From a virus: 36,390 nt of DNA. Location: positions 1 through 36,390 of the IMG/VR virus record IMGVR_UViG_3300044955_000080; one strand, 5' to 3'. Positions 1 to 36,390 of the stretch are shown one piece after another (positions within the stretch are counted from its first letter, which is position 1; each line of letters opens with the position of its first letter). The notes under the pieces were generated by a model. That model searched no databases and had not been told where the DNA came from. It saw only the letters and a list, made by a program, of their open reading frames with translations. Made by a program: the position numbers and the translations under genes.

Positions 1-127
1 CAGGTGCGGCATTCAAAACGGTAGCCGCCATTTGCCCCATTTCATCAACTTTACGCTGAGCACTTTCAAGGTTGCGTTTATCCATCTTAGCAACAGCTTC
101 AATAAACGCCGCGCCACCTTCAGGATC
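1..127. repeat. Terminal direct repeat, left copy (assembly overlap)
   Basis: These 127 bases recur identically at 36264-36390, at the other end of the window. The reading frame of the gp20-like gene passes through both copies without a break. This is what an assembler leaves when it closes a circular or circularly permuted, terminally redundant genome. An odd length of 127 is also a common maximum k-mer, so the repeat is more likely an artefact of assembly than a real packaged terminal repeat. Confidence 0.9.
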
Positions 128-364
128 AATAGCAAGTAATTGTTGCTGTGCGGCTGTATCACCAGTAACAGCTTTTTGGCGCAAGCCAGTAAGCATAATG
201 TTACGCTCTTTGGCTGCCTTCTCTCGCTTTGGCCTTTCGGCAACTTCGCGTTCTGCTTCGCTTAATTGTAATTGAGCCATCTTGTTGCTAGTGCGAGCAC
301 CTTCAACGGCGGCTTTCGTGCGATATAGTTCACCTACATCAATTCCAAATCTGTTAGCTGCCAT
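1..364 (-). CDS. gp20-like DNA transfer/ejection protein, N-terminal part (continues at right edge)
   Basis: This is the first 121 codons of a gene that runs off the left edge and continues at 36263-35773. Joined across the circle it is 855 nt, an exact multiple of three, giving a 284-residue protein. The ATG at 364-362 is preceded by a strong AGGGGG ribosome binding site with 8-nt spacing, and begins 4 nt after the stop of the gp7-like gene. The visible part starts MAANRFGIDVGELYRTKAAV and is helical, charged and Ala/Glu/Lys-rich with no membrane segment. Position between a gp7-like protein and a giant gp16-position protein matches P22 gene 20, whose product is ejected with the DNA and helps form the trans-envelope conduit. 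The family assignment is by synteny and by C-terminal sequence. Confidence 0.8.
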   Translation of the reverse strand, partial: MAANRFGIDVGELYRTKAAVEGARTSNKMAQLQLSEAEREVAERPKREKAAKERNIMLTGLRQKAVTGDTAAQQQLLAIDPEGGAAFIEAVAKMDKRNLESAQRKVDEMGQMAATVLNAAP

Positions 365-368
365 TGTC

Positions 369-1067
369 TTAACCCCCTGCGGCTGGCGTCATCATTTTAT
401 AAGTAAGCCAGTTTTGAGCGGCTTGGTTAACAACTTGCGCCTGATCTTGATAGCCACTAGCACGAGCAGCGCCAACATTTTGAGCCGCTATATTTTGTGA
501 TCTGCCAGTGTTAGCCATGATGTTGCCGCTAGTTTGAGCAAGTTGGCTTGTTGTTTGCGCTTGTCCGGCTGCGGAAGCTTGACCGCCCTGAGATAAACCA
601 GAAAGAATATTGAACTTACGAGCCTTCTCATTAGCGGCACGAGCATAAGCGTTAGCATATTCTTTGCTGCCTTGCTCTTGACCAAACTGAGTTAAAGCCT
701 TTTGCTGAGCACCAGAAAGTAATCGACCACGAGCAGCAGCAGAAGCGTCAATTGCTTCAACACCTTCTTTCATGCGTACACGATAACCGGGATCGTCTTC
801 AAGGTTGATATTACCAACCTCAAAAGCACCAGACTGAACACCTTGCCAGATAGAATCAAGGGCTTGTTGGCCCACATCACGCCAAGGAGCAAAATCAGCT
901 CTTTGTTGTTCTGCCATTTCACGCTGAAACTCTAAGTTCTTTTCAGCCATTCTTTCTTCAGCAGCCACACCTTGTTTCGCGGCTTTGGCTTGCGCTTTAC
1001 TTGCTTTGTTAGCTGAGTAAGCCCCGACAACAGCGGAACCAACAACAGCGGCGGCAACTACAGACAT
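369..1067 (-). CDS. gp7-like DNA transfer/ejection protein
   Basis: A 232-residue protein beginning with a small-residue hydrophobic stretch (MSVVAAAVVGSAVVGAYSA) followed by Lys/Ala/Glu-rich helix and a conserved FAPWRDVGQQAL motif (about residues 60-71). The rest is rich in Gln, Ala and Ser, with SGAQQKALTQFGQEQGSKEY typical of phage internal virion proteins. In P22, gp7 is an injected protein processed at its N-terminus; the N-terminal segment here could be similarly cleaved or inserted into membrane. The start is supported by an AGGGGG site 4-5 nt upstream. It lies between the gp14-position gene and the gp20-like gene, the same order as in P22. Confidence 0.82.
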   Translation of the reverse strand: MSVVAAAVVGSAVVGAYSANKASKAQAKAAKQGVAAEERMAEKNLEFQREMAEQQRADFAPWRDVGQQALDSIWQGVQSGAFEVGNINLEDDPGYRVRMKEGVEAIDASAAARGRLLSGAQQKALTQFGQEQGSKEYANAYARAANEKARKFNILSGLSQGGQASAAGQAQTTSQLAQTSGNIMANTGRSQNIAAQNVGAARASGYQDQAQVVNQAAQNWLTYKMMTPAAGG

Positions 1068-3999: not shown

Positions 4000-4000
4000 T

Positions 4001-4741
4001 TTACGGCCCCTGTTCAATTATGTAGGTACCAATACCTTTTCTCTGTGTTGCAACTGCCCTATCCATCCCAAGAACAAGAGATCGGTAATTGTTGCGCTTG
4101 AGCCATTTCTTTTGTTCAACTGCTTGAGTTGCCACAAGTGGAGTTATATCTTTACCCCATTCAGGCGCTAACTCTAAGCATAAATTATAAATAAGGGCTT
4201 TCTCATAACCCGGTGGAAGATTTATTTCATCTGTTAGATTTGCGGTTGGTAGGTATTCCGCTAATGGTTGAACAACTTCTAAATGAAGCGTTTCATCTTG
4301 ATAAGGAACAGATTCAAATAAAATGGTATTTAAAGGCCAACCTTTGCGAAGGTAAAAGCGAGAAGGGCGAGAAATATTAGTTTTTCGGCTAATTCGGTTA
4401 AATGTTTCAACGTCAATAACCTCAAGAATGTAATCAGTTTCGTAAGCGTCACGAATAAAGGCTGATAGTATTCTTTCTGGCCTAGCTGTTTGAATGTGGT
4501 TATCTGGAACAATTTGATCAGGGTAAATACCAATAGTGTATTCAGGCTGACCATTTAAAAGAGTTTTTGTAACAACGCTAACAACTGGAATTAATAATGT
4601 TTCATTACTCCAAGAGTCCACCATTTGAGTGAACACTTCCAAGGCGTCATCACCTTCATTGGCCGGCAACGGCTCGCCAGCCGCAAGAACGCCAATCTTT
4701 CGCATTGACGATCTAATAATATCTTGAACTGTACGAGCCAT
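4001..4741 (-). CDS. Head-to-tail adaptor, P22 gp4-like tail accessory factor
   Basis: A 246-residue protein starting MARTVQDIIRSSMRKIGVLA, followed by EGDDALEVFTQMVDSW, the typical start of the P22 gp4 family. Later motifs include LPPGYEKALIYNLCLELAP, shared by head-tail connector proteins. In P22 gp4 assembles as a 12-mer onto the portal after packaging; P22 gp4 is about 166 residues, so this protein is longer and similar to gp4 homologues in marine phages. It is followed immediately by the gp10-like gene. No muramidase motif is evident. Confidence 0.88.
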   Translation of the reverse strand: MARTVQDIIRSSMRKIGVLAAGEPLPANEGDDALEVFTQMVDSWSNETLLIPVVSVVTKTLLNGQPEYTIGIYPDQIVPDNHIQTARPERILSAFIRDAYETDYILEVIDVETFNRISRKTNISRPSRFYLRKGWPLNTILFESVPYQDETLHLEVVQPLAEYLPTANLTDEINLPPGYEKALIYNLCLELAPEWGKDITPLVATQAVEQKKWLKRNNYRSLVLGMDRAVATQRKGIGTYIIEQGP

Positions 4742-4751
4742 AACTTACACC

Positions 4752-5351
4752 TTACTCAGCGTTTAACGCTTCAGTGATTTTTTCAATCATTGTGTCTTCA
4801 CCCCAATTTGAGCGAAGAGATAAACCAAGTGATTTACCTAATACAATGTGTTCTTCTTTGTTTAATGACTTAGGATCTTCATTGAAACGATCTTGAAGTT
4901 CGTTAAGTTCATCAGCTTCAGCATCAGATTGCTTTAGCCCTCGGCGCTCAGCTTCACCAATCAATGTTTCATCAGAAACATTTTCAAGGTTAAGAGCAAC
5001 AAAACCATCTTCAGTAATACGGCGCTTAAGCTCTTCTTGAAGAGTTTCATCAGTTAGATTTGCCGGGTCAAAAGCAGCTTGAGCCATTTTATTAGCTTCG
5101 CCTTTTAACTGTTCTTGAGTTAAAACGATAAAGCCAAATGATTTAACCATTTCAACTAAATCTTCAGGGCGAGCATTTGTAACTTGCTCTTGTGTCATTC
5201 CAGTGTCGTTATCTTCTGGAAGTTTCAAGCGAGCTGGAGAGTGAACCCAACCTTCCTTTTCTTTTGCTTCAACTTCTTCATCAGAAAGTTTGAACATTTC
5301 ACCCTTAGGGCAATTTTCGTGAAATAAATAAATTAATCTTTTGTTTGACAT
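4752..5351 (-). CDS. Acidic virion-associated protein with HeH/LEM-like C-terminus
   Basis: A 199-residue, strongly acidic protein with no clear enzymatic motif. The C-terminal part (165-196; EEHIVLGKSLGLSLRSNW then EDTMIEKI) has the helix-extended loop-helix pattern of HeH/LEM or SAP-like modules that occur in small phage capsid-associated proteins. Two further segments (TDETLQEELKRRI about 100-112 and SDETLIGEAERRGL about 126-139) repeat a similar pattern, suggesting tandem degenerate LEM-like units. It lies between the coat gene (with a terminator in between) and the gp4-like gene. A role in head maturation or DNA-end contact is only a guess from position. Confidence 0.6.
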   Translation of the reverse strand: MSNKRLIYLFHENCPKGEMFKLSDEEVEAKEKEGWVHSPARLKLPEDNDTGMTQEQVTNARPEDLVEMVKSFGFIVLTQEQLKGEANKMAQAAFDPANLTDETLQEELKRRITEDGFVALNLENVSDETLIGEAERRGLKQSDAEADELNELQDRFNEDPKSLNKEEHIVLGKSLGLSLRSNWGEDTMIEKITEALNAE

Positions 5352-5390
5352 AGTGATTACCTTTTAAAAGTTTATCGAAAGCTTTCACCC

Positions 5391-5419
5391 AAAAAGCCCG
5401 GAACTAAGCCGGGCTTTTT
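5391..5419 (-). terminator. Intrinsic terminator after the coat gene
   Basis: A perfect 11-bp inverted repeat (AAAAAGCCCGG, loop of 7, CCGGGCTTTTT) lies 15 bases beyond the coat stop codon. Read leftward it is a GC stem followed by a T run, an intrinsic terminator; its symmetry makes it possibly bidirectional. It is placed to make coat mRNA more abundant than the downstream tail genes, which then depend on read-through. Confidence 0.88.
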
Positions 5420-5433
5420 ATTAGGTATCAACC

Positions 5434-6690
5434 TTAGGAAGAAGCAGCGCCCCAAAGTCGAAGAGCTAACTCGCCATAAATCAAGTCAGCACCCCAAACG
5501 GCATCAATACGGTGTATTTCCGATTGCTCATTAATATCATAAGCAGCGGTTAACAGTAGAGATAAACCAGTATCAGGATCGGCAGCTCGAGACTTAACAA
5601 CAGCCGATTGAGGAAGCTCTAAATCAATCATTGCTAAAGCAATAGCGTCACGGTGGAACAAGTAGTTTTGTTCGTAAGTCGTGTTAGCTGCGCCAAGAAT
5701 GTTGATTGGAGCATTATCAGCCGGAAGGTTAGTAACATTTTGATAAGCCGCCAAACTAACAGGATCGCCATTCTCATTAGGAATGGTTGCCGTTCCATCA
5801 TTTAAGCTTGGAGAAATCTTAATTGTCCCAGCGCCAATACCATTAGTATTAACGTCTTCAAGAACAACAAACTCTTGAAGTAAACCAGTTGATTCATAGT
5901 TTTGAGGGTTAACACCAAATACACCATCAAAGGTAATAACGTCACCAGCTCTTAAGAAGAATAATGTTGAAGCTGTACCACCATCAAAGTTAACAGTGTC
6001 ACCATTAACAGTTGAAGCGCCTACCAATGGCGTTCCGCCGTGATCACCAACTGTATGCTTAGGTAAGTTCTGAGATTCATAAACCTCATAAGCTGAAACA
6101 TTACCGCGGTAGCCCATTTTATAAGCTTGCTCAACCATACTTTCTTTGAACAACTTAGTAACTTCATCAGATAGAGAAGCACAAGTGAACGGGTCAAGTA
6201 CGGCGTGGCGCATACCATCTTGAGGAACTGCGTAAGTTGTTTGCTTAGCACCAGCGTTAGCAAAATCAATAAACGCACCCGGACGAACACCCGGAGTACC
6301 AGAAGAATGGAAGGCTTTCTTAAGCGTTAATGTTAAAGAGCGGTCTATAGCGTTGGCAATCTGAACCATACCCGATTTTAGATAACGCTCTGAGAACTGA
6401 GTAATATCTAAAGTTTTATCCTTGACAGTGTACTCAAGGCCAACATGCTCTTGATTGTCAATTTTAAATGGAATGGTTTGATCGACCATTGGTCTTTTAA
6501 CCAAAGTTCGACCACTGGCAGATTTAACACGGTAAGGAAGTTTTAATCGAATAGTATCACCAACCTTACCAAAGGTTTTTTCATAGTTACGATAAACACA
6601 CTTAGCCATAACTAAGTTGTTTTTAAGAAGTCGTAACGCTTCTTTTGCAATGACGTCATCCGTCAATAGATTGTTGTCTTGAACAGCCAT
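5434..6690 (-). CDS. Major capsid protein, P22 gp5-like (HK97 fold)
   Basis: 418 residues, close to P22 coat (430). It starts MAVQDNNLLTDDVIAKEALR with VYRNYEKTFGKVGDTIRLKL and PYRV, characteristic of the P22 coat family, and carries a central region (about 210-300) with several Gly/Thr-rich strands that would correspond to the inserted I-domain. A strong AGGAG site precedes the ATG. The order scaffold, then coat, is as in P22. It would form the procapsid shell on the scaffold and expand during packaging. The strong terminator downstream fits high, separately tuned expression. Confidence 0.94.
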   Translation of the reverse strand: MAVQDNNLLTDDVIAKEALRLLKNNLVMAKCVYRNYEKTFGKVGDTIRLKLPYRVKSASGRTLVKRPMVDQTIPFKIDNQEHVGLEYTVKDKTLDITQFSERYLKSGMVQIANAIDRSLTLTLKKAFHSSGTPGVRPGAFIDFANAGAKQTTYAVPQDGMRHAVLDPFTCASLSDEVTKLFKESMVEQAYKMGYRGNVSAYEVYESQNLPKHTVGDHGGTPLVGASTVNGDTVNFDGGTASTLFFLRAGDVITFDGVFGVNPQNYESTGLLQEFVVLEDVNTNGIGAGTIKISPSLNDGTATIPNENGDPVSLAAYQNVTNLPADNAPINILGAANTTYEQNYLFHRDAIALAMIDLELPQSAVVKSRAADPDTGLSLLLTAAYDINEQSEIHRIDAVWGADLIYGELALRLWGAASS

Positions 6691-21546: not shown

Positions 21547-22142
21547 TGACTGAGAATGATGGAAATAAGTTTAAGGAACTAATCACCGCTATCAATGTGA
21601 CTTACGGTGAAGAGTTCACTCAACCTCAAACGCTACTTTGGTGGAATATGTTTAAGCCATATCCTATTGAAGCATTTGAACAAGCTGTTTACCAGCATAT
21701 GGCTGATCCTGATCAGGGTATGTTTTCACCTAAGCCAGCCAACATAATGAAGTTTATCACTGGCACCACTAAGCAGAACGAACAGGCACTTGAAGATAAA
21801 GCTGAACTTGCTTGGCACGTTATTGAAGGTGAGATTCGCCGTATTGGTTCTTATGGCTCATTAAAAATGGAAGACAAGCAAGCGTTAGCGGCTGTTCAAG
21901 CTCTTGGTGGTTGGAAGCATCTTTGTTCATTAACTACCGATCAAATGGTTTGGGCGCATAAAGAATTTATTGCGGCCTACCAGAATTATGAGCGTACACC
22001 AGTTGAAGCTTTGCCTGATAAATTGCCGGGTAGAGTAGCTTTAGAAAACCACAAGGCTGAGCAATCGCAAGGCTTAAAACATATAACCGATGGCATTCAA
22101 AACTATCGCAACAGAAAAGGAATAGAGAATAATGGCGAGTAA
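21546..22142 (+). CDS. Putative helicase loader / replication protein P-like
   Basis: 198 residues. The N-terminal region (FTQPQTLLWWNMFKPYPIEA, FEQAVYQHMADPDQGMFSPK then PANIMKFI) has the pattern of phage proteins that follow an O-like initiator (DUF6475-like), with FxPKPADI typical of them. The C-terminal part is basic and helical. The ATG overlaps the previous stop (TAATG), so the two are translated together. A lambda P role, delivering host DnaB to the phage origin, is inferred from order and not proved by motif. Confidence 0.65.
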   Translation: MTENDGNKFKELITAINVTYGEEFTQPQTLLWWNMFKPYPIEAFEQAVYQHMADPDQGMFSPKPANIMKFITGTTKQNEQALEDKAELAWHVIEGEIRRIGSYGSLKMEDKQALAAVQALGGWKHLCSLTTDQMVWAHKEFIAAYQNYERTPVEALPDKLPGRVALENHKAEQSQGLKHITDGIQNYRNRKGIENNGE

Positions 22143-22686
22143 GCAACCAAACGATATTATCAGTTCAGACCTTGACTCTGATATGAAAAATAGTTGGGGT
22201 ACTGATCCTGTAATTTTTGAGGCAATGAACAAAGAATTCAACTTTGCTCTTGATGCGGCGGCAAATGACAGCAATCACAAATGTTCGTTTTATTTCACCA
22301 AAGAAGATAACGCGCTTGAAATTGATTGGTCACATCATCTTGAAGATTATGGCATGCGCCCGGTATGGATTAACCCACCTTACGGGAAAGGCTTTATCAA
22401 GGAATTTATGAACAAGTGTATTGAGCAAAAAGAAAAAGGCGTTACTTCTGTTCTTCTTGTTCCGGCTACGCTTGACGCTCAATGGCTGCCTATCAATGAA
22501 ATATCTGAGATCAGAATTGTAACTGGTGGAAGGCTTAGTTTTTATCACCCGATTAGTGGGAAAAAGGTTAACGGTAATACTAAAGGGTCAATGTTTGTTA
22601 TATTCAGGCCGTCAAAAATGCCTTGTGTTGTTCGTATGATTGATAGAAATGAATTATTGGAGATAGGAAAATGTCAGCAAGCTTAA
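22132..22686 (+). CDS. dam: Phage Dam-type N6-adenine DNA methyltransferase
   Basis: 184 residues of the phage N-6-adenine methyltransferase (Dam) family: SWGTDPVIFEAMNKEFNFAL (21-40) and DAAAND, which form the SAM-binding part, and the catalytic WINPPYGKGF (NPPY at 81-84), then LLVPATLDAQW. It would methylate adenine, probably in GATC, protecting phage DNA from host restriction or modulating replication or packaging. It overlaps the loader-like gene by 11 bases. The phage carries a second methyltransferase-like domain within its giant virion protein. Confidence 0.93.
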   Translation: MASKQPNDIISSDLDSDMKNSWGTDPVIFEAMNKEFNFALDAAANDSNHKCSFYFTKEDNALEIDWSHHLEDYGMRPVWINPPYGKGFIKEFMNKCIEQKEKGVTSVLLVPATLDAQWLPINEISEIRIVTGGRLSFYHPISGKKVNGNTKGSMFVIFRPSKMPCVVRMIDRNELLEIGKCQQA

Positions 22687-24871: not shown

Positions 24872-27565
24872 CTACGCTGAAAAATCAACCGATATATCAG
24901 TTATGATCATCGGCAACGAATCAGACTGAGCTTTAAACGCTCCAAATCCATAGCCACCAGCGTATATTTCGTTTGGTATATTAGTCATAACGGCAATGTT
25001 ATTAGTAATACCAGTTGATATATTTGTCATTTGAACAAATACGTCAGTGTTGCCTATGGCGTTATGAACAACTGAAATATAGTAAATGTTATCAGTAACT
25101 ATCGTTGACAGATCAGTGCCGGAAGTGGCGCTTGCTATCAATGTTTCAGTTGTCACTTCGCCGTTTGAGTTTGTAGCGTCAGCTCTATAAAGTTCAACGT
25201 CAGTGCCAGAGAACTTCAAAACATTGTAACAATCAAAGTCTTTAAACGCCCTGTTACCGTTCCAGTATATGTTTCGGTTGTGGAGGGTGTTGGCTTTGAA
25301 AGTTAGCAGCGTTGTTTCAAGTATCTTGCTGAAGTGATAATTTTCACGACTAAAGTGATTTTCAGACCATTGTATTGAGCTAGAAGCACCAGAAGATATT
25401 TTCCTAATATCTTTATGCTGAACATTCTGATCAAACAAAACAAAGCCAGAGGACACGGTTTCTTTAATGGTGTCGCGCTCATTTCTTGGCTCTATTCTCA
25501 AGAAGCCTAAGCTTTGGTTAGAGTAAACAGCATCTTCAGGGGCAGTAACATTTATCTGATTTAAACCAACTTTAAGCCTTGCTAACAACTGGTGAGAACC
25601 AGAGAACCACGGCGTTCCTTGGCCTATATCTGTAATGCCTTGGTTGTCAGCAAAGAAGCGAGCCTTCTTACTTGAAATGTCAGAATAATTAATAACTTCA
25701 AGTTTTGAAATTCTATTGTCGGCCTTTTGGTCATTGCCAAAGCTAAGCATATCGTAAGTAAGATCCATAGGCTCTTCACAAAAAACAAATATGCGGTACA
25801 TGAACTGATTATTAACAACCGGGTTCCAGCGATAATAAAAAGAAGTTCTTGTTACAACAAAGTCATTATCAATTGAAGGCCAAATTACTGAGCCTTGATC
25901 AGTACCTAAAGTTATAGGGTATGGATTACCAGCAGTGAACTTATATGTTTCGCCGCCTTTAATCCATTTAACTAAAGGGTGTAACCAAGCTGTCATCCAT
26001 GAGGCAATATGAGCGTGACCCTTATCATTAGGGTGAACGCCATCAGTAGCAAGAACCTCAGTAAAATCCTTGTCTTGTTCAAAAGCTTTTTCAACATAAT
26101 TTTCAAGCGCCAACCGTAAGCTTAATTGCTCTAGGTTGTATTTCTCTCTCAATCTTTGGTTGATTGATTCAATGATTGAAATTGACTGATCGTTTTGTCT
26201 TCCACTAACGCCCGTACCAGTGCGCTGAAAGTTAAGAACCGGATCGTTAATGTAAGGCTGAATACCACGCTCAAAACATTCAATGATAAGCAACTCCATC
26301 TTCCATTCGTAAGACTCTCGAATTGAAGGTATATCGTTAAGATTAATACTGTCAGAAGTACCCCAAGATAACGCGATTGCTTTAACGTCTGAAAAGTCTT
26401 GGTTGTTTAGACCGTCATTAAAGCCAAAAAATACACGATGAAAACACTTGTTACCAAAGTTGTTTTTCAGACTCATTGAGTCGAAGCCAGTGTTATAAAT
26501 AGCAAGGTTGGCACTACCGATCATTAAGTTAAGATTTCCTTCTAACTCTCTAGGGTAAGCGTTAGGTGAATCATTCATAACAATTGGCGAACTAAAGTTG
26601 CCAACACTGCCATCAACAAAACTAGCAACATGATCAGTTGTGGTTGCGCCGTCTGTTGTGCTATCACCATAAAAAGCCATAGGGTACTTTTCACCAGCAA
26701 GCCATCTAGCGGTAATATCGTAAAGCGTTGATATAGTGTCGTATGAATTAACGGCGTAACCATTTTCAGCGTACTTTTCAATTATCTCATAGTTTGCTTG
26801 ACCGCCTGATTCTGTCCAGCCAACCTGTCTAGGTGTTGTTATATTGTTTGGATTAGCAAACAAGCCATTGCCAAGATCAATTCCAAATAAATCAGAGCTA
26901 GTTGAAATAAAGTATTCAATGCCGCCACCATCAGCAATGGCGTAATATCCTTTTGTCTTTACAGCGTCACCGTTATTAAGCGACTCAGCAAGATCAATCA
27001 TATCCTGAACAGTATCAGCTTCGATTGTTGGCGATAGTGAAGGTGGTAATGATTCAGGGCTTACAATAGAAACGCAAACTGACTCTATATTTACAGAAAC
27101 ATTACTTGTTTTTACTACTACCGTAGTTTCGCCGCCGCCATAAGATGAAGATTCAATTGTTGCGTAGGCAAAATTAGAACCATCATTCATTCTTACTCGT
27201 CTATCGGCAACGTACTTATCAGTAACATTACCTGTTATTTTGAATGAGGTAGGGCTTAGGTATGTAGCAGCAAAGCAGTTAATCCACTCACTTGCTTGAG
27301 CTGCGGTAACTGGATCACTTGACCATATTTCATTATCGTCTTTATCTTTGAGCACCATTTTGTAAGAGCCATCAAGATAAACATCAGCATAACCTTCGCC
27401 GTTAAGAATCACCGGGTTTGTGTTAGCTGTTATCTGATCTTCAGTCTTATAGGTGTCTTTTGGTGAATTTGTTCTGGCTTCGTAAGTATAAAGCTTACCG
27501 AAAGCAAGAGGTTTGCCGTTTCTATCCCAAGCGTAAAACTTAGGGCCTATCATTGCTACAGCCAT
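24872..27565 (-). CDS. Tailspike with P22-type head-binding and SGNH hydrolase domains
   Basis: 897 residues. The first ~100 match the P22 tailspike head-binding domain (IGPKFYAWDRNGKPLAFGKL, SPKDTYKTEDQITANTNPVI, DVYLDGSYKMVL). A following segment (VQDMIDLAESLNNGDAVKTK, YYAIADGGG) is the usual beta-helix cap motif. Then an SGNH/GDSL-like catalytic domain: GDSTTDG with Ser302 and a late DGVHPNDKGH with Asp508 and His511, the esterase triad. The C-terminal 350 residues are beta-rich. It probably deacetylates or cleaves surface polysaccharide during attachment. AGGAG lies upstream; the start is 3 bases after the giant gene stop. Confidence 0.88.
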   Translation of the reverse strand: MAVAMIGPKFYAWDRNGKPLAFGKLYTYEARTNSPKDTYKTEDQITANTNPVILNGEGYADVYLDGSYKMVLKDKDDNEIWSSDPVTAAQASEWINCFAATYLSPTSFKITGNVTDKYVADRRVRMNDGSNFAYATIESSSYGGGETTVVVKTSNVSVNIESVCVSIVSPESLPPSLSPTIEADTVQDMIDLAESLNNGDAVKTKGYYAIADGGGIEYFISTSSDLFGIDLGNGLFANPNNITTPRQVGWTESGGQANYEIIEKYAENGYAVNSYDTISTLYDITARWLAGEKYPMAFYGDSTTDGATTTDHVASFVDGSVGNFSSPIVMNDSPNAYPRELEGNLNLMIGSANLAIYNTGFDSMSLKNNFGNKCFHRVFFGFNDGLNNQDFSDVKAIALSWGTSDSINLNDIPSIRESYEWKMELLIIECFERGIQPYINDPVLNFQRTGTGVSGRQNDQSISIIESINQRLREKYNLEQLSLRLALENYVEKAFEQDKDFTEVLATDGVHPNDKGHAHIASWMTAWLHPLVKWIKGGETYKFTAGNPYPITLGTDQGSVIWPSIDNDFVVTRTSFYYRWNPVVNNQFMYRIFVFCEEPMDLTYDMLSFGNDQKADNRISKLEVINYSDISSKKARFFADNQGITDIGQGTPWFSGSHQLLARLKVGLNQINVTAPEDAVYSNQSLGFLRIEPRNERDTIKETVSSGFVLFDQNVQHKDIRKISSGASSSIQWSENHFSRENYHFSKILETTLLTFKANTLHNRNIYWNGNRAFKDFDCYNVLKFSGTDVELYRADATNSNGEVTTETLIASATSGTDLSTIVTDNIYYISVVHNAIGNTDVFVQMTNISTGITNNIAVMTNIPNEIYAGGYGFGAFKAQSDSLPMIITDISVDFSA

Positions 27566-27567
27566 GA

Positions 27568-30500
27568 TTATTTCTCCTGTTTAAAATTTTCTGATTCTTG
27601 CTTTGCTTTCTGTAAAGCTTTATCAGCCTGTAAATAGTATTTCATAAATGCGTCATTTCGGCTATTCCATAGCTGATCTAGCTTGGCTCGCTTCTCAGCA
27701 CCAGTTAAATTTTTATCATGCTTAACTTTAAGTTCAGCGGTTTTTATACCGTCTTTACCGTACATGAGCTTTATTAATTGGTTCATGGAATCATTAAGGC
27801 CAAACAAAACTTCCTTTTCCTTGGCTGATAAACCAAAGAAACGGTCATCTTTGAAACGCTGATCAGCTTTCATTTGACCTTTGATAGCCCGGCGAACATC
27901 TACTTGCTGTCTAAAAGTTGAAACAACACGATCAGATTTTTCTTTAAGGTCAAAGAACTTTTCCATTGCTGCGGTTGCTGGCCTTACATCAGGCGTTAAG
28001 AAGCGGCGCAAGAAAATATTATCTGAAGCTTTACTGTCAGGTTTTTCGCCAAACTTCTCTTCATCCCAAAGCATATGATCAGTACCCCAAAGCAGATAGC
28101 CGCCAAGGTAGCCAGTGTAAGCCTTGAACATATGCTCAGCCTTAATAGGGCTAACACCTAAAGCTTCACCCATACGAACAAAGGTTTCAGAAGTGTTTGA
28201 AGTATATTGCTCAGTAGCTTCAACATCACTTAACGCTTTTGGCACAACTGGCGATCCTGTCCATTTCTCATTTCTTACCAGATCCCACCAGCCCGTCATC
28301 ATTGCCGGAGTGCCATCAATTCCATACATTTGCGTTAACGTCCAGATCATGCCATCAGCAAATTCAGCGCCTTTGTCATCTTCTACATATTTAGCAAATA
28401 ACTCAGGCATTGTTGCGTAAACAAAACCAACATCATAAGGGCGAGGTATTTTAACGAATTGACCATCACCGATCTTGATATGCCAGTTAGTTCTTTTTTC
28501 GTAATCCGGGATCGCTTTGTAATCTTCATCGTCTTTATTCACTAAGTAAAGAATAAGAGTTGGTACGGTGATCCCTAAGAACGCCTTCATAGCTAAAGCC
28601 GTTGGGTTGCCATCGTATTTCTTGCGAACTACCGCTTCCCTGAAAACTCTATCCTGTGATTGGATCATAGCGTTTAAGAATGGAACAGTGCGAATATAGC
28701 CAGTTAAAAACCTATTCGCTCCTAATACGCTAAAGTCGGTTGAGATCTCCCTAGCCTCAAAACCAGCGTCCATATCAGATTTCATATTCTTCTTAGCAAG
28801 TCTGAATTCACCAATGCGAGTTCCGTATTCAAAGGCACTGGCTATATTATCAATTGTAGACAATAGTTTTTCTGGCATTGTCATAACGCCAAATTCATCA
28901 AGCTTAACTCTGCGGCGAGCGGTGCCTTCTTTGGTCATTGCCTCAAGTCTTGAGGAATAACCGCCACCAGCTTTAATAAAATTCTGATAGTGTTCGTCTT
29001 TAGTTATAAACGAATACATACCCTTAAATGAATCAACAAAAGGTTTAAAATTGTTTTTACTAAGGAACGCCGCCCCGGTTGTATCACGAACTAAGTTAGC
29101 CCCGGTAAATTCAACGCCTAAAGTAATCATTCGAGTAAAGAAGTTCTTAACGCCAAACATTACATTCATAAAAGAGCTATAGCTTTCAGGGTTCATTGAA
29201 AGCAACATTTCTTGAAGCAATGGATCTTGAACTTCGTAATATTTAGGCTTTCCGTTAATGATAACTGAGTCAACGATATTACCAGACTCATTAACGCGAG
29301 GCTTAACGCCATGCTGCCAAAAAGTAAGTAAGTCTTTGCCAGCAAGCTCAAGGTCGCCATCAATAACAATACCATTAGCCTCAAGCACCTTGCCGATCTT
29401 GCTCTTCATTTCATCAGCGTAAACTTGTACTGGCTTGGAATCAGGCGCGATCTTAGTCGCAAATATGGCTCCATCCTTATGACCTGAAATATATTTATAA
29501 AGCCTTTGCTTGGCTCTATTGTTTAGCGCGGCTCTTACATTGGCTGTTATGCCATCTTGGATATTAACTAAAATATCATTGAGGTTAGCGGTACCGCCTT
29601 TTAATTTTTGGAAGCCGCCACCTACACCAGTTGGGCCACCAGCTAATTGATCGCGAATACGATTAAAAGGAACATAGTCTTTGTTCATGTTTTGCATGGT
29701 CTTACGACCTTCAGGCGTAATCATTCCGGCTTCTTCGTAAAAGTCCATCATGCGATCATTAAACGCTTGATAGTCTTTCTGGATAGACTCAAACACCGGG
29801 TAATCTTTACCAAGTCGCGCCCATTCTTTAGCGGTTTCTTTTGGTATTAAGTTTTCGCGACCTTGGCGGTGAAGTTCTAAAGCTCTTCGTCCGGCAAAGT
29901 AGCGAAGCAATACATCAATTTTCTGATCGCCTTTGTGCTCAGGTTTCAACTTGATTGATTTAACTGGCTCCAATACTTCATGTAGGCTCTTGCCTGTTTT
30001 TTGAAGGTCGCCTTTTTCATCAAAGTTAACGGTACCGTAATTCATAATGTAATCACTGATACCTTCTGAACCACCATTGGCAATACGGAATTGCTTCCAA
30101 GCCGATTCTTGAACATTGCCAATTTTACGAGAAAGCTCTTGCTCAACTTTTCTTGAGGCGTGAAAGCGGTCAATTACTTGCTGGCGAATACGCGAATCAC
30201 GGCGATAAGCCCATTCATCAAAGCGCTGTTTGAATGATGGATCCTTACCAATTAAAGCTTGGCCTAACTTATCCGGGCCTTGGAAGTAAAAACGGTGCAT
30301 GAGATCTTGCATATCACGCATAGGGTTTAATAACTTACGGTCACGAGCCATTAAGTTAGTAAACGCCTCATAGAACTTAGGCGCACGAATTAAAGCTTCT
30401 TGTGAATTGGTAAGCCATAAGCGAACAAACTCAGCAAAGCCTTCAATCTCCATTATCTTGTTGTCAGCATCGGTATAGCTAAGCGCCTTCACTTCTTCAA

Positions 30501-33500
30501 CGTATTTAGGATCCTGATAAAGTTTTTTGAAATTAGGTAAAGTAATGTTTGAGTAAAAATCTAAGTAGTGCGCCATTTCGTGAGCGAGCACTTCAACATC
30601 ATTCTTCTTGCGAGTTCTGATCTCGCCAACTTGAGGGCGATAAAAACCTTCAGAAGACTTACCTTTTATTTTACCAAAGTAAATTCTGCGCCCCATTATC
30701 TGAACCAACTTAGAAATAATTGGCTCAATACGTTGAGGCTTATCAGGAATGTTTAACTTACGACCTTCGATATAAACAAACTCGCGGCGTTCTGGTATTC
30801 CAGTTGAGCGGAACAAACCAATGAAGTTATGGCCCGGAGCATGAAAGATAGAAGCGCCCGGCTTAACTGGCGTGGTGTCTTTTTTCTTATACTCGCTATC
30901 GTCTTTCTTGCGCTCAAGTGTATTACTATCGTTTTTCTCAATAGTAACCATAACGGTTGAAACGCCAGTTGGACGGTCAGAAGTTTTAAAGCTACCTTCA
31001 GGCAAGTCTTCAATATAACTTCCCATATCATCAAGCCATTCACGGAACTCAACCGCTTTCTTGCGCGAGTTCTTAACACCAGCGCCCATAATGGCAACCA
31101 GCTTACCGCCCGGCTTCAACAAGTCATAAGCGTGTTTAACATGGTCAATGTCTTGAAAGTTTTCAAAAGGTGGATTCATTACAATGCGGTCATAATTCTT
31201 AGTGTGCTCTAAGAAGTCATTACCAACTACGTTATAACCTTTTGCCTCAAGGATAGCGCGAAGGCCAGCATTGAATTCTATAACCTCAAGAATAGCATCG
31301 GGCGCGGCCTGTTCTATTTCCTGAGCAATATTACCTTTACCAGCAGAAGGCTCTAATACTTCATGCCCGGCTTGAATATCGGCATAGTCAATCATCTTAT
31401 CAACTAACGGCTTAGGCGTAGGAAAGAAGCCTTCAATCTTCTTGCCAATCAAATCACGCTCTAAAGCTTTTACCGGGTCAGCCTTGCGCTTGGCAACCTT
31501 TAACGAGTCAAGTTCACGAATAGCAGCGCGAAGCTGTTCTTCAGTGGTGATACCTAAGCGTTTAATTCTTGAGATAGTTTGATACTGATCAGCAGCAAAG
31601 CCACCAATATCATAAATATCAATCAGGTCTTTTTTGATTGCCTCTTTCAGCTTGGTAAATTGCTCTTCACTTAGAATATTAAGATCGTCACGTTTGCCAG
31701 TTGGTAAGCGCCTTAACTCAGCAGATAAGCGAGCAAAGCCTTTTTTACCTTTAAGTTTGTCGGCTACCTTTTCAATATTGCGGTTATACACTTCGATTTT
31801 AGGGAAGGTAACATTGGCAATATAATCATCAACGGTAACACCTTCTTTTAAAGGTCGGCTAATTGAATAGCCATCAAAAGAACCAGCCTCATAAAAATCA
31901 TTAGGTATAGCTCGCTTCTGAATAGATATAAGCTCTTCAAGTTGCGTTACTTGGCTAAGCTTGCCTAAGTGAGTTAAATCGCCTTCCTGTAAACGAGTGG
32001 CAATATTGCGAACCGTTTTAGCTAAAGCAAGTTGCTTCTCAGCTCGCTCAGTGGCGTTAGCAGCCATTGAAGCGCGTCTTGCTGTGTTAGCTTGTCTTGG
32101 TCGATTAATCTCTTCGTTGGCTTTGTTTTCCATCTTCTCAGCCATATCAAGAAGCTTATCGGCGTTCTTGGATTGCTTAACTTCTGCTTTCGCTTCGTTG
32201 AAGTCGCTTTTATCAATATCTTTACCAGATAGTAATTGCTCAAACTGATCAGCCGCTTCAACCGTTTTGAATTGAAAGCCCGGTATAGCTTCACCTTTTG
32301 AGTAAGAAGAATAGTAGCCACCAAACTGTTTAGCCTTTGCGCTCAACTCACGGAACTTATCTTTATCAACTCGGCCTTTCATCTTAACGACAAATAGATC
32401 AGCGCCCGTTTTAGTGTGCTTTGTTTGCGCTCGCTCAGTTGGGATAGCTTCAACTTCACCAGATACAACAACTGGCTTTTCTTCAGTGGCTAAAGTTTTA
32501 CTAACTAACTCGTCATACTTGGCAAGTTGCTCAGCGGTCATCTTGTCTTTACCGCGAACACGAATAAACTCTTTAAACTCAGTAAGCGTTTCAGGTTTAG
32601 TTAGCGCCTTAACAAATTCATCTTTGCGCTTTTCAGCTTGCGCCCGGTATTCGCGTTGCTTCTCATAAGCTTTATCAACATCAGCTTGAGTTTGATTGCG
32701 AACTTGTTCAATAATTTGCTCTTCAAAAGACTTTGAGCCCCCAAAGATAGTTATTGTGGCATCAGCCATAACATGATCAGAAAGCATTGATTCATAGGCT
32801 TGCTTAACCATTTGGGGCTTACTTAAATCGTTACGAGGTGATTTAATAATTTCCTGAAGCATGGCCTTAGTAAATTTACGCTGGCTCATTTCAGCAATAA
32901 TTTTATCTTTGTTGGTGATCAGGTTTTCAGCATCATCAAGAATTTGCTTAGCCGTAGCGGTTTGATCTGCTACTGACTTTCTGAAGTTGCGGTATGAAGA
33001 AGGAGTGTAAACTTCAGGCACCTTATCAGCTTCAGTCAATGTTTCATCACTGGTTTCTTTGATAACTTCGGATAGCTTAGGTTTCTTCTTCTCAGCCGCC
33101 GCTTTAGCTTCTTCTTGCTTAACTCTCTCAGCTTCGACTTCAGATACTTCACTGGTTTCTTTACCTTGTTGCTGTAAAAACATAACAGCAGAACTAAGCT
33201 TGTCTATCTTCTTCATTGTCGCTTTGTTGTAAAGGTCAATGCCACCAGATAGGTTTTTGTTATCAGGGTCAGCGGTTAATTCTTTAATCCACTGATCAAG
33301 CTCTTTGGCTGTGTAGTTTTTGGATAAAGCAACAGGATCCCAATTAAACACTTTACGCTTAACTGGTTTTGTAACTTGTTGTTTTTGCTTAGGTTCTTTT
33401 AGTTCAGATACAAGCGCCGGGTTGGTGTGCCAGTTAGACCAATCGCGCTTTTGTTTTTTTAGCTCTTCAATGCGAGCTTTAACAGCTTTAGGGTCCTTAA

Positions 33501-35724
33501 CATCAACACCTTCTTTAGCAGCAAGTTCAGGGCGCTTAGCGGCACCTTGAACGGCTGACAAAGTACGTTGAATTTCTGACTGCTTCTTGCTTGCTGCCTT
33601 AGCTAATTCTTCAGCTTCAATCATTGCTGAATCATCAAAACCAAACAAATCACCAGAAGATTGTTGTTGATCACTGGTCATTGACTTAACGGCTTTAACT
33701 AAGTTTTCAGCAACGGTAATTGTTTTACCTTCCTGAATTGCTTTAATACCAACAGCCTGTAACGACTCATTACGAGGCGCGGCTTCAGCTATTCGAGTAG
33801 CGGCTTCGTCACTTACTTGATCGTTTCTGTGGGCGGTAACGAGCGCATCACTTCCTTGAGTTGCGATTGAGAAAGCCCTTTTTCCCGTCTGCCTTGCCAA
33901 TATTCCTTGTGACTCTGCTTCTTGCTTTCTTGGTTTTGTTGCTTGGATGAAATCGACATAATCTTTTACCTTACCTTGACCTTCACGAATATTTAAAACA
34001 GCATCTAAAGCAGCGGCCTGATCTGCGCCAAAACCTTCAGACTCATAATGATATTGAGCTGGAATAGTTTCTTCACCACTACGCTCAGCTAAATCTAAAC
34101 GGTGGCGACCACTAATAACTTCTTTGTCACCATTTTTACGAACCCATATTTGAATAGGAGCAACACCAGTTCTTTCAAACTTACCGCCTAGCGGCTCGAC
34201 AACTCCCTTAATATCAGCGCCTTCCTTAAATTGAGGAACGTCTTTGCTGATCTTTATTTCGGATATTGGAGCTTCAACAACTTCTAGCCCGGTTACTTGT
34301 TGTTTAACTGGTTTTTCACTTTCAGGCTCTTTAGGAAGCTCAACCTCAACAGCTTCTTGCTCAGGCATTTTAGCTTTATCAATAGGCTGTTCTTTAATAT
34401 TAACTTCAAGTTCAGGCTTCGCTTCAGTTTTAACTTCAGTCTTTTCAACATCGTTTAGCACTTCCTTAAACTTGGCTTGCTCTTCTTTTGTTAAGTTTTG
34501 CCATAACTCAGAAGCTTCAAACTTTTCTTCAGTGGCGGCTTTTTGTAGTTGAGCGCGCTCAGGATCAAGCAAATCAATAGCGGTTTCATCAACAGCAATA
34601 TCTTTACTGGCTAACTCTTCCTCCATTGCTTGAGCAAGAACTTTTTCAGGTGAGTAATTAATCTCGTTTACAGTTGCGGTAGTTGTACCGACTGTGCCAC
34701 CAAATACACCACCAGCAACAGCGCCAGCAGCAGCACGATCAAGAGCTTCCATAAAATCCATTTTGGCTTCAGTACCGTAACGCTCACCAACGTATTCAAT
34801 CATGCCTTCTTGAATAGCTTCAGTTGCGGCTTCTTTGCTTAACGCTTTACCGCCAGCCTTAGCAACTCGCTTGGTTTGCTCTTTAATGCCAGCCTCAAGC
34901 AAGTCTTTACCTAACTCAGCTTTAGCATCTGAAGTCATACCTTTGGCACCAATGCGCTCAAGTAAAGCAGAAGCAGCAGCAAAAGGAGCAGCTTCAAGAA
35001 TATCTTCAAGCTCAGCTTTCTCTTTACCTTTGTTTATTGCTCGTTGCTCGCCTATCTCACCAGAACGCGCAAAAATATAAGCTGGCAATGCGTAGATAGT
35101 GGCTACCATATCAGGAACAGACTTGATACCTTGCTCAAGTCCATACTCTAAAACTTCGGCATAAGCTGAACCGCTTAACGGGCCACCTTCAGAAAAGGCT
35201 TTTTTGACACCTTCCCAATTAGCTTGCTCTTCATAACCAAGATCAACGCCTTTAAGAACTTCAGCGCCTTTAGTTAGAATTGGTTCAGCTTCTACCTTGG
35301 CCCACTCTTCAGGTGATTTATAAGAAGGAATAATATCGCCATCCTCCCAAACAAAGCCGCCCATAGGTAACTTTTGCTCAAGCCCTTCGCCAGTTGTTTG
35401 AATGGTTTGAAGTAAAGCGCCACCAAGATCACCAGCTCGCTCACCAAGGCCAGCGCCCCAATTTTCCAACTTATCACCAACAAGCTCTAACATTGACTTG
35501 TCTTCAGGTGCTTTCATTGCCGCCCCGGTAAAACCGTCAACCTCTTGTTGTTGAATTGGTTGTTGTTCAATAGGCTGAACAGGCTGAAAACCTATTTGCT
35601 GGTTGAATTGTTCAACTGGAATATCTGAATAGAATTTATTATGAAGAGCTGATACTAGCTGATCATCAGGAAGGTCATTGTATTGTGGGTTTTTAGCCCG
35701 GAAGTCTTGAATAAACTGTGACAC
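27568..35724 (-). CDS. Giant polyvalent virion protein (ParB-like, N6-MTase, HExxH peptidase, LPD38-like)
   Basis: 2,718 residues, GTG start with AGGAG 8 nt upstream. N-terminus (FIQDFRAKNPQYNDLPDDQL) is typical of phage large polyvalent proteins; a small-residue, Gly-rich region follows (GAVAGGVFGGTVGTTTA). About 485-715 is ParB-like with SGRHR at 538-542. About 1430-1640 is an adenine methyltransferase: FFPTP (1433-1437), LEPSAGKGN (Glu1458), NPPF (1517-1520). HEMAH at 1715-1719 plus EGFAE at 1761-1765 is a zinc metallopeptidase signature. About 2100-2640 resembles LPD38. It replaces gp16 in the ejection-protein position, so it is probably injected and acts on host or phage DNA on entry. 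Enzyme activity is inferred. Confidence 0.85.
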   Translation of the reverse strand: MSQFIQDFRAKNPQYNDLPDDQLVSALHNKFYSDIPVEQFNQQIGFQPVQPIEQQPIQQQEVDGFTGAAMKAPEDKSMLELVGDKLENWGAGLGERAGDLGGALLQTIQTTGEGLEQKLPMGGFVWEDGDIIPSYKSPEEWAKVEAEPILTKGAEVLKGVDLGYEEQANWEGVKKAFSEGGPLSGSAYAEVLEYGLEQGIKSVPDMVATIYALPAYIFARSGEIGEQRAINKGKEKAELEDILEAAPFAAASALLERIGAKGMTSDAKAELGKDLLEAGIKEQTKRVAKAGGKALSKEAATEAIQEGMIEYVGERYGTEAKMDFMEALDRAAAGAVAGGVFGGTVGTTTATVNEINYSPEKVLAQAMEEELASKDIAVDETAIDLLDPERAQLQKAATEEKFEASELWQNLTKEEQAKFKEVLNDVEKTEVKTEAKPELEVNIKEQPIDKAKMPEQEAVEVELPKEPESEKPVKQQVTGLEVVEAPISEIKISKDVPQFKEGADIKGVVEPLGGKFERTGVAPIQIWVRKNGDKEVISGRHRLDLAERSGEETIPAQYHYESEGFGADQAAALDAVLNIREGQGKVKDYVDFIQATKPRKQEAESQGILARQTGKRAFSIATQGSDALVTAHRNDQVSDEAATRIAEAAPRNESLQAVGIKAIQEGKTITVAENLVKAVKSMTSDQQQSSGDLFGFDDSAMIEAEELAKAASKKQSEIQRTLSAVQGAAKRPELAAKEGVDVKDPKAVKARIEELKKQKRDWSNWHTNPALVSELKEPKQKQQVTKPVKRKVFNWDPVALSKNYTAKELDQWIKELTADPDNKNLSGGIDLYNKATMKKIDKLSSAVMFLQQQGKETSEVSEVEAERVKQEEAKAAAEKKKPKLSEVIKETSDETLTEADKVPEVYTPSSYRNFRKSVADQTATAKQILDDAENLITNKDKIIAEMSQRKFTKAMLQEIIKSPRNDLSKPQMVKQAYESMLSDHVMADATITIFGGSKSFEEQIIEQVRNQTQADVDKAYEKQREYRAQAEKRKDEFVKALTKPETLTEFKEFIRVRGKDKMTAEQLAKYDELVSKTLATEEKPVVVSGEVEAIPTERAQTKHTKTGADLFVVKMKGRVDKDKFRELSAKAKQFGGYYSSYSKGEAIPGFQFKTVEAADQFEQLLSGKDIDKSDFNEAKAEVKQSKNADKLLDMAEKMENKANEEINRPRQANTARRASMAANATERAEKQLALAKTVRNIATRLQEGDLTHLGKLSQVTQLEELISIQKRAIPNDFYEAGSFDGYSISRPLKEGVTVDDYIANVTFPKIEVYNRNIEKVADKLKGKKGFARLSAELRRLPTGKRDDLNILSEEQFTKLKEAIKKDLIDIYDIGGFAADQYQTISRIKRLGITTEEQLRAAIRELDSLKVAKRKADPVKALERDLIGKKIEGFFPTPKPLVDKMIDYADIQAGHEVLEPSAGKGNIAQEIEQAAPDAILEVIEFNAGLRAILEAKGYNVVGNDFLEHTKNYDRIVMNPPFENFQDIDHVKHAYDLLKPGGKLVAIMGAGVKNSRKKAVEFREWLDDMGSYIEDLPEGSFKTSDRPTGVSTVMVTIEKNDSNTLERKKDDSEYKKKDTTPVKPGASIFHAPGHNFIGLFRSTGIPERREFVYIEGRKLNIPDKPQRIEPIISKLVQIMGRRIYFGKIKGKSSEGFYRPQVGEIRTRKKNDVEVLAHEMAHYLDFYSNITLPNFKKLYQDPKYVEEVKALSYTDADNKIMEIEGFAEFVRLWLTNSQEALIRAPKFYEAFTNLMARDRKLLNPMRDMQDLMHRFYFQGPDKLGQALIGKDPSFKQRFDEWAYRRDSRIRQQVIDRFHASRKVEQELSRKIGNVQESAWKQFRIANGGSEGISDYIMNYGTVNFDEKGDLQKTGKSLHEVLEPVKSIKLKPEHKGDQKIDVLLRYFAGRRALELHRQGRENLIPKETAKEWARLGKDYPVFESIQKDYQAFNDRMMDFYEEAGMITPEGRKTMQNMNKDYVPFNRIRDQLAGGPTGVGGGFQKLKGGTANLNDILVNIQDGITANVRAALNNRAKQRLYKYISGHKDGAIFATKIAPDSKPVQVYADEMKSKIGKVLEANGIVIDGDLELAGKDLLTFWQHGVKPRVNESGNIVDSVIINGKPKYYEVQDPLLQEMLLSMNPESYSSFMNVMFGVKNFFTRMITLGVEFTGANLVRDTTGAAFLSKNNFKPFVDSFKGMYSFITKDEHYQNFIKAGGGYSSRLEAMTKEGTARRRVKLDEFGVMTMPEKLLSTIDNIASAFEYGTRIGEFRLAKKNMKSDMDAGFEAREISTDFSVLGANRFLTGYIRTVPFLNAMIQSQDRVFREAVVRKKYDGNPTALAMKAFLGITVPTLILYLVNKDDEDYKAIPDYEKRTNWHIKIGDGQFVKIPRPYDVGFVYATMPELFAKYVEDDKGAEFADGMIWTLTQMYGIDGTPAMMTGWWDLVRNEKWTGSPVVPKALSDVEATEQYTSNTSETFVRMGEALGVSPIKAEHMFKAYTGYLGGYLLWGTDHMLWDEEKFGEKPDSKASDNIFLRRFLTPDVRPATAAMEKFFDLKEKSDRVVSTFRQQVDVRRAIKGQMKADQRFKDDRFFGLSAKEKEVLFGLNDSMNQLIKLMYGKDGIKTAELKVKHDKNLTGAEKRAKLDQLWNSRNDAFMKYYLQADKALQKAKQESENFKQEK

Positions 35725-35745: not shown

Positions 35746-35765
35746 AAGCCCGACTTAACGGGCTT
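35746..35765 (-). other. Hairpin between gp20-like and giant genes
   Basis: AAGCCCG (35746-35752) pairs with CGGGCTT (35759-35765) over a 6-base loop, in the 48-base gap. Read leftward it is followed by ACTTTTTT, then the AGGAG of the giant gene. It may be a weak terminator lowering expression of the giant gene or a transcript stabiliser. Confidence 0.6.
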
Positions 35766-35772
35766 TATCATA

Positions 35773-36390
35773 TCATCGAATTCCTAAAGGGTCATTCTCC
35801 GGCATTTGCTGGCCTTCAACTTCTTCAGCCGCCATTGTTACCGCTTGGCTTCTAGTCACGCCGCCTTGCTGGAATATCTCAGAAGCGCGAGTTGCGATAG
35901 CTTGAACCTTCGGACGAACTTCAGGATCTAAAGCTCTAAGGTTTCCGGCTTCGTCAAACATACCGCCCATTAGTTCAGCAGCTTGGCGATACATCAGGCT
36001 TTCATCAGCAGACTTCAAGCCACCTTCACCAGTGCCAGTTTTCTTAGCTGGGCGTTTGCCGCGAGCAATCTCTTTACCACGTTGATAAACAATATCTTCA
36101 TCACCAACCTGAATAGCTTTTGGATTTTCAAGGATCTTATCCATTGCCATAGCTTTAGAAAGTGAAACTTCAAGGAAGTTAAGATCAAGTTCTTTAGGCA
36201 TCTTAGCAACTGACTCAGGAGGTAAAGTAGTAAGCATTTGCTTGTATAGATTAGCTTGCTTTTCAGGTGCGGCATTCAAAACGGTAGCCGCCATTTGCCC
36301 CATTTCATCAACTTTACGCTGAGCACTTTCAAGGTTGCGTTTATCCATCTTAGCAACAGCTTCAATAAACGCCGCGCCACCTTCAGGATC
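35773..36390 (-). CDS. gp20-like DNA transfer/ejection protein, C-terminal part (starts at left edge)
   Basis: This is the rest of the 284-residue protein begun at 364-1. The frame is open to the window edge, so the ATG at 36348 is internal, not the start. The C-terminal region (ADESLMYRQAAELMGGMFDE, NLRALDPEVRPKVQAIATRA, GGVTRSQAVTMAA) is a conserved pattern in gp20-type ejection proteins of P22-like phages, where it recurs with DPxxxxKVQ and an A-rich repeat. It is helical, soluble and highly charged. The gene is followed after 48 bases by the giant polyvalent gene, matching the P22 order 7-20-16. Confidence 0.82.
   Translation of the reverse strand, partial: DPEGGAAFIEAVAKMDKRNLESAQRKVDEMGQMAATVLNAAPEKQANLYKQMLTTLPPESVAKMPKELDLNFLEVSLSKAMAMDKILENPKAIQVGDEDIVYQRGKEIARGKRPAKKTGTGEGGLKSADESLMYRQAAELMGGMFDEAGNLRALDPEVRPKVQAIATRASEIFQQGGVTRSQAVTMAAEEVEGQQMPENDPLGIR
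36264..36390. repeat. Terminal direct repeat, right copy
   Basis: Identical to 1-127. Removing one copy gives a 36,263-bp circle in which the gp20-like gene is intact. See the left copy for interpretation. Confidence 0.9.

Follow-up and report, generated by a model that had tools for sequence, protein, structure and literature searches.

Polyvalent proteins of phages have so far been defined by their enzyme domains, with LPD38 treated as an associated domain without function. In the polyvalent proteins described by Iyer et al. in 2017 (PMC5512222), LPD38, a ParB-like domain, an N6-adenine methylase and a zincin are found in a single late-gene protein beside virion genes, and lethal factor served as the reference fold for the polyvalent metallopeptidases. 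LPD38 itself receives one mention in the main text of that study, as a phage-only domain (PMC5512222). The head of the myophage P1 carries the anti-restriction proteins DarB and DdrB, the second of which combines a ParB-like with a zincin domain (PMC9024508, PMC5512222). Related proteins of short-tailed phages are already annotated as DNA methylase or DarB-like. One of these is gene 1 of Vibrio phage VvAW1 (3,640 residues); another, gp69 of Burkholderia phage JC1 (4,515 residues), was recovered from CsCl-purified virions, in which proteomics ranked it second by score with 51 unique peptides (PMC9144972).

The structure of the ejectosome forms another field, and an LPD38 protein in the place of gp16 would join the two. 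According to the account in PMC8402733, gp7, gp16 and gp20 of P22 are injected and build a trans-periplasmic conduit. The gp16 proteins of P22 and T7, of 609 and 1,318 residues, are encoded after genes of the gp7/gp14 and gp20/gp15 types and contain no methyltransferase; that of T7 has an N-terminal peptidoglycan hydrolase (PMC8954989). In N4, a giant enzyme without similarity to gp16 fills the gp16 role: gp50, the vRNAP, is the third ejection protein and is composed of an N-terminal domain with membrane helices, a linker, the RNA polymerase, a C1 domain with HExxH and a large helical C2 domain without structural relatives (PMC12633501).

The DNA analysed here, called the window throughout, is an IMG/VR virus record of 36,390 bases. 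An exact 127-bp direct repeat at its termini (1-127 and 36264-36390) identifies the record as a complete genome of 36,263 bp, present as a closed assembly cut inside the gene at the gp20 position. It belongs to a marine short-tailed P22-like podovirus whose closest named relative is Thalassomonas phage BA3; Shewanella phage X14 and several podophages of Vibrio come next. Between BA3 and the window, the giant protein is 97.6% identical where alignable, and the head genes are 78% identical at the DNA level. The genes run in the order TerS, TerL, portal, scaffold, coat, gp4-like, gp10-like, gp26 position, a 183-residue protein, gp7 homologue, a 284-residue protein, giant protein and tailspike-like protein, an order also found in the BA3-like relatives checked. 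The features of the locus are as follows.

2..364, minus strand: gp20-position protein, N-terminal part (same gene as at 35773..36390, spanning the record ends)
369..1067, minus strand: gp7 homologue, 232 residues, PHROG 598 (DNA ejection), same family as P22 gp7
24872..27565, minus strand: tailspike-like protein, 897 residues, weak GDSL/SGNH hydrolase similarity, directly after the giant gene
27568..35724, minus strand: giant protein P0001, 2,718 residues, single open frame, GTG start at 35724, stop at 27568-27570
27571..30324, minus strand: LPD38 core, residues 1801-2718, about 900 residues, helical, constant C-terminal chassis module
28012..28530, minus strand: Pfam LPD38 match, residues 2399-2571
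28540..28596, minus strand: candidate membrane helix, residues 2377-2395, single, conserved, hydrophobic, just before the Pfam LPD38 match
30325..30894, minus strand: zincin-like metallopeptidase, residues 1611-1800, HEMAHYLD 1715-1722 (HEMAH 1715-1719), EGFAE 1761-1765
30895..31704, minus strand: N6-adenine methyltransferase, putative cargo (gamma-class, TaqI/HsdM-like), residues 1341-1610, FFPTP 1433-1437, EPSAGKGN 1458-1465, NPPF 1517-1520
31705..33519, minus strand: mostly helical region before the methyltransferase, residues 736-1340
33520..34326, minus strand: ParB-like putative cargo, residues 467-735, SGRHR 538-542, replaced in BA3 and in relatives L015, L019 and L024
34327..35724, minus strand: N-terminal chassis part with acidic linker, residues 1-466, kept in relatives with other or no cargo
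35746..35765, minus strand: terminator-like hairpin between the gp20-position gene and the giant gene, AAGCCCGTTAAGTCGGGCTT
35773..36390, minus strand: gp20-position protein, 284 residues, C-terminal part, PHROG 36852

A preliminary description of the sequence had announced one GTG-initiated frame of 2,718 residues at 27568-35724, and this was borne out, with the strand, which it had left unsaid, being minus; the plus strand has many stops across the locus. An AGGAG Shine-Dalgarno sequence lies 8 nt 5' of the GTG. The protein belongs to an existing, essentially undescribed family, PHROG 15406, which aligns to residues 64-2718 with 3,424 bits, and 19 GenBank phage records match at least 80% of its length. 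Values of dN/dS are about 0.03-0.2 in most segments and comparisons, with a maximum of 0.36 in the mid region (unalignable ParB swaps left out). The family alignment, the GenBank matches and the low dN/dS together argue against a chance frame, and all alignable parts of the protein are under purifying selection.

The motifs named in the same description lie exactly where it placed them, and the domains assigned to them differ in strength. The N6-adenine methyltransferase is firm, with a Pfam MTS match at residues 1452-1548 (E=9e-6). In an AlphaFold2 model of residues 460-1640 (mean pLDDT 83, with about 90-97 in the methyltransferase part), the domain best matches HsdM, the M subunit of a type I methylase (E=9e-8), and superposes on TaqI over about 190 columns at about 3.3 Å. 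The SAM motif, the NPPF that follows it and the class I fold are those of the gamma/TaqI class. The resemblance of the C-terminal region to LPD38 is equally firm (PF18857, 158 bits against a gathering cut-off of 27, E=3.3e-46). The zinc metallopeptidase signature found good support: HExxHxxD and the downstream Glu are conserved across relatives at 27-77% identity, and an AlphaFold2 model of residues 1603-2718 (mean pLDDT 80, pTM 0.76) contains a zincin-like domain followed by a large helical domain. In the former, strands precede a helix (108-121 of the model) that bears the HExxH, with an Asp three residues on, and the Glu of EGFAE lies on the next helix (153-170), the arrangement of HExxH, Asp and downstream Glu given for polyvalent zincins in PMC5512222. 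The top Foldseek match of the zincin and core model in the PDB is a zincin, lethal factor, at a probability of 0.97 but with E=0.23. From sequence and model together, there is a good case for a predicted metallopeptidase. In that search only zincins rose above noise, and a BFVD search with the same model returned further LPD-annotated phage proteins of the large polyvalent kind.

The ParB-like region is the weakest of the named domains. SGRHR is itself a conserved box and lies at the stated position, and fold support is moderate: ParB_N is weakly matched in 6 of 12 homologues (Pfam, best E=0.0035), and the best PDB profile match of the segment is the ParB-family protein Noc (E=0.03). Neither this segment nor the zincin segment of the window protein matches any Pfam family above cut-off. 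The candidate membrane helix at 2377-2395 reaches a Kyte-Doolittle value of only about 1.5-1.9. With LPD38, an MTS methyltransferase, a zincin and a ParB-like region in one polypeptide, encoded between the gp7-like and gp20-position genes and the tailspike-like gene, the protein fits, in domains and gene context, the polyvalent kind of Iyer et al. (PMC5512222). Where this locus goes beyond that study is in placing the core in the gp16 slot, in identifying it as a constant C-terminus, and in documenting exchanged and cargo-free forms.

The preliminary description had further proposed that the giant protein replaces gp16. Its position agrees with this, given the P22 gene order and a gp7 homologue of PHROG 598; homology to gp16 was not found. 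Comparisons by single sequence, HMM and profile-profile methods, including a six-member gp16 family, gave no similarity to P22 or T7 gp16, and PHROG 770, the family of P22 gp16, gave no match, with profile-profile probabilities of 0.0-0.1%. As searches with both the core and the N-terminus were empty, homology to gp16 was rejected, and the protein is on this evidence best described as a non-homologous occupant of the gp16 slot.

A close relative provides a natural exchange at this slot. Vibrio phage 1.184.A shares with the window its head genes and gp7 homologue, and also the 284-residue protein as far as its N-terminal part is concerned, but an 819-residue protein is encoded at the locus of the giant. 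Directly behind the 819-residue gene and before the tailspike-like gene lie frame-broken remnants of the giant, corresponding to residues 2336-2380 and 2655-2718. Aeromonas phage 4_4512 has, at the gp16 position, an annotated DNA transfer protein with which the 819-residue protein shares 30% identity. On its own the 819-residue protein matches the gp16 family weakly; similarity to the P22 gp16 family is significant for members of its group (ZP9 to SPN9CC, 7e-8; CBW1004C to PVA1, 6e-13), so that the link to gp16 is transitive.

How the giant protein varies among phages with the same gene order shows a division into constant and exchangeable parts. Residues 1-466 and 1611-2718, the latter comprising the zincin and the core, make up a constant chassis, whereas residues 467-1610 are cargo, which some relatives exchange and others lack. 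BA3 is 96% identical over residues 1-466 and 98-99% identical over 1341-2718; an unrelated segment stands in place of the ParB-like region and alignment resumes at residue 739. As the flanking dS is only about 0.3, this swap is recent. An ADP-ribosyltransferase had been suggested by eye for the replacing segment of BA3 and L024, and Pfam gave no match. A GNAT acetyltransferase occupies the place of ParB in L015 (Pfam E=6e-5), and other segments do so in L019 and L024, the latter without NPPF. In L027, L028 and the more distant L055, on contigs of 36.9, 37.4 and 40.5 kb, only a linker joins the N-terminal part to the zincin and core. Gene 1 of VvAW1 resembles the giant in its locus, its neighbours and its zincin and core (37% identity), but its cargo is an Eco57I-type methylase with a SNF2/ResIII helicase. 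The methyltransferase and ParB cargo is thus dispensable at this locus, and the zincin and LPD38 core are kept in all close relatives with the gene. In these respects the protein resembles a frame that can be reused to deliver anti-defence enzymes; natural phages carry this cargo, another or none at a single locus, which allows direct tests.

Beyond this locus, relatives of the core are encoded in at least 589 IMG/VR stretches, and the core is conserved far more widely than the N-terminus. The C-terminal placement of the core holds in all 37 non-redundant proteins that contain it, with 0-24 residues behind it, whereas the stretch preceding it varies between 291 and 3,283 residues; in 17 of the 37 an HExxH immediately precedes the core. 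Pfam found LPD38 in each of 14 diverse relatives scanned, together with assorted polyvalent cargo (helicases, Eco57I, pyrophosphatase, ART-PolyVal, ddrB-ParB, MuF_C, SLT and RadC). In Pelagibacter phage HTVC204P the core protein comes after the internal virion protein gene, i.e. at the position of T7 gp16, and in a Bacillus Pagevirus it lies in the tail/lysis region; short forms of 1.2-1.7 kaa are found at comparable positions in podophages of Pelagibacter and Bacillus. Taken together, the data suggest that constancy lies with the LPD38 region, which takes the place of gp16 in the ejection apparatus, and that the enzymes are variable cargo.

Several observations on individual core proteins can be added. 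The only apparent exception to the C-terminal rule is L096 (positions 3-5705, its 5' side cut), in which about 720 residues appear after the LPD38 core. L018 has an in-frame TAG (3603-3605) that falls between the zincin and the core (residue 1806 of the giant) and is followed two codons later by a start codon; its reading as a gene split was set aside, a single metagenome contig being insufficient. In L035 and L036 the cargo region additionally matches a SprT-like metallopeptidase (residues of about 992-1044, Pfam E=2.5e-4), beside the zincin that adjoins the core. The core was also matched in a structural stretch of an Stx-converting phage record, and this stretch lists no toxin gene.

JC1 shows directly that an LPD38-core protein is part of a virion. 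The core lies at the C-terminus of gp69 (profile E=7.5e-61; Pfam LPD38 E=1.9e-33), and gp68 and gp67, the products of the two genes just upstream, were likewise found by virion proteomics (PMC9144972), so that gp69, as the giant does, stands last in a run with two virion-associated proteins. Unlike the giant, gp69 has an N-terminal SLT transglycosylase, cargo of the Eco57I/helicase type, a distant core and different head and tail genes. No virion proteomics of the window phage or a close relative was found in the literature, and the virion location of the giant is carried over from this distant homologue.

Among the ejection proteins of a P22-like virion the giant is likely to be the third and the largest, occupying the place of gp16 with an unrelated constant frame and exchangeable cargo. 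By analogy with P22 and T7, the head would hold it together with the gp7-like and gp20-position proteins, and all three would leave through the tail. The LPD38 core, with its one candidate membrane helix, may then form part of the inner-membrane or cytoplasmic end of the channel, a role without structural support because the helical core has no significant fold match in the PDB. The cargo of residues 467-1610, with the methyltransferase and ParB-like region, would enter the host with the first DNA and, as proposed by analogy with the DarB-type proteins of P1, would most likely modify this DNA or shield it from restriction. Since cargo-free relatives exist, ejection would not need the cargo enzymes. 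In the last and least certain step, the zincin adjoining the core would most likely cut the chain and free the cargo, which is plausible but is weakened by the cargo-free relatives that keep the zincin. More tentatively, and with the odds somewhat against it, the LPD38 core may represent a further, sequence-unrelated lineage of gp16-type ejection proteins across P22-like, T7-like, Bcep22-like and Bacillus podophages, i.e. a general chassis that delivers enzymes inserted upstream with the first DNA, the adjoining zincin releasing them in one large branch.

Two other explanations of the protein as a whole have to be weighed. It could be a pure anti-defence passenger, a DarB-like head protein, with the gp7-like and gp20-position proteins alone forming the channel; P1 DarB is a passenger of such a kind (PMC9024508), the domain set is typical of polyvalent proteins (PMC5512222), and the giant has no similarity to gp16. 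This is nevertheless improbable, as a pure passenger would hardly be expected to keep residues 1-466 and 1611-2718 in its cargo-free versions, the locus is occupied by either the giant or a gp16-linked protein, and the short core forms of Pelagibacter and Bacillus podophages stand at a similar position. A variant closer to the preferred model takes N4 gp50 as its guide and assigns the membrane and ejection function to residues 1-466, with the zincin and LPD38 core remaining cytoplasmic and packaging, holding or regulating the cargo. The giant, like gp50, would be a third ejection protein, its order of N-terminal module, enzyme, HExxH domain and large helical C-terminal domain is that of the N4 protein (PMC12633501), and its N-terminal part is also constant. 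The cargo differs, however, being an RNA polymerase in N4, and homology of the core to C2 is not detectable: a core profile missed C2 and gave only a weak zincin match to C1. As it is the core, and not the N-terminus, that contains the conserved candidate membrane helix, and the core is by far the more widely conserved part, this variant is judged rather unlikely.

A further question, which leaves the rest of the ejection model intact, is whether the zincin is a self-cleaving release device at all or instead a host-directed protease or an inert structural domain. The latter has a substantial chance of being right, somewhat short of even. The zincin persists in L027, L028 and L055, where there is no cargo to release; conversely, 20 of the 37 core proteins have no HExxH just upstream of the core, cargo-bearing ones included, and the vRNAP of N4 is packaged unprocessed (as reported in PMC5512222). 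Release, on the other hand, accords with the location of the domain, as cleavage there, between cargo and core, would part the two, and with the persistence of the catalytic HExxH and of the glutamate in EGFAE, at a dN/dS of about 0.03-0.1, among BA3-like and VvAW1-like members.

Much of the background to this locus is already known, namely polyvalent proteins, the LPD38 domain, virion packaging of a DarB-like homologue, giant ejection proteins and the PHROG family. A search of mainly open-access literature returned no paper tying LPD38 to ejection proteins; nor did the literature searched contain an LPD38 core assigned to the gp16 slot, the exchange seen in 1.184.A or the series of cargo-swapped and cargo-free forms at one locus.

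Other genes of the window touch on this subject as well. A second, stand-alone methyltransferase-like gene with an NPPYG motif lies at 22132-22686 on the plus strand, where BA3 and 1.184.A have an annotated DNA methyltransferase, so that the methyltransferase of the giant may not be the only one of the phage. In the 897-residue protein behind the giant gene, which is probably the tailspike, an N-terminal segment that matches PHROG 26190 is followed by the GDSL/SGNH hydrolase-like region. The hairpin between the gp20-position and giant genes might reduce the expression of the giant. Hairpins like it, in which a pair change is compensated, are found in BA3, L013, L017, L016, L020, L022, L023 and 1.211.A, and in the relatives that bear them the gap is 44-49 nt, with a T-run in some only.
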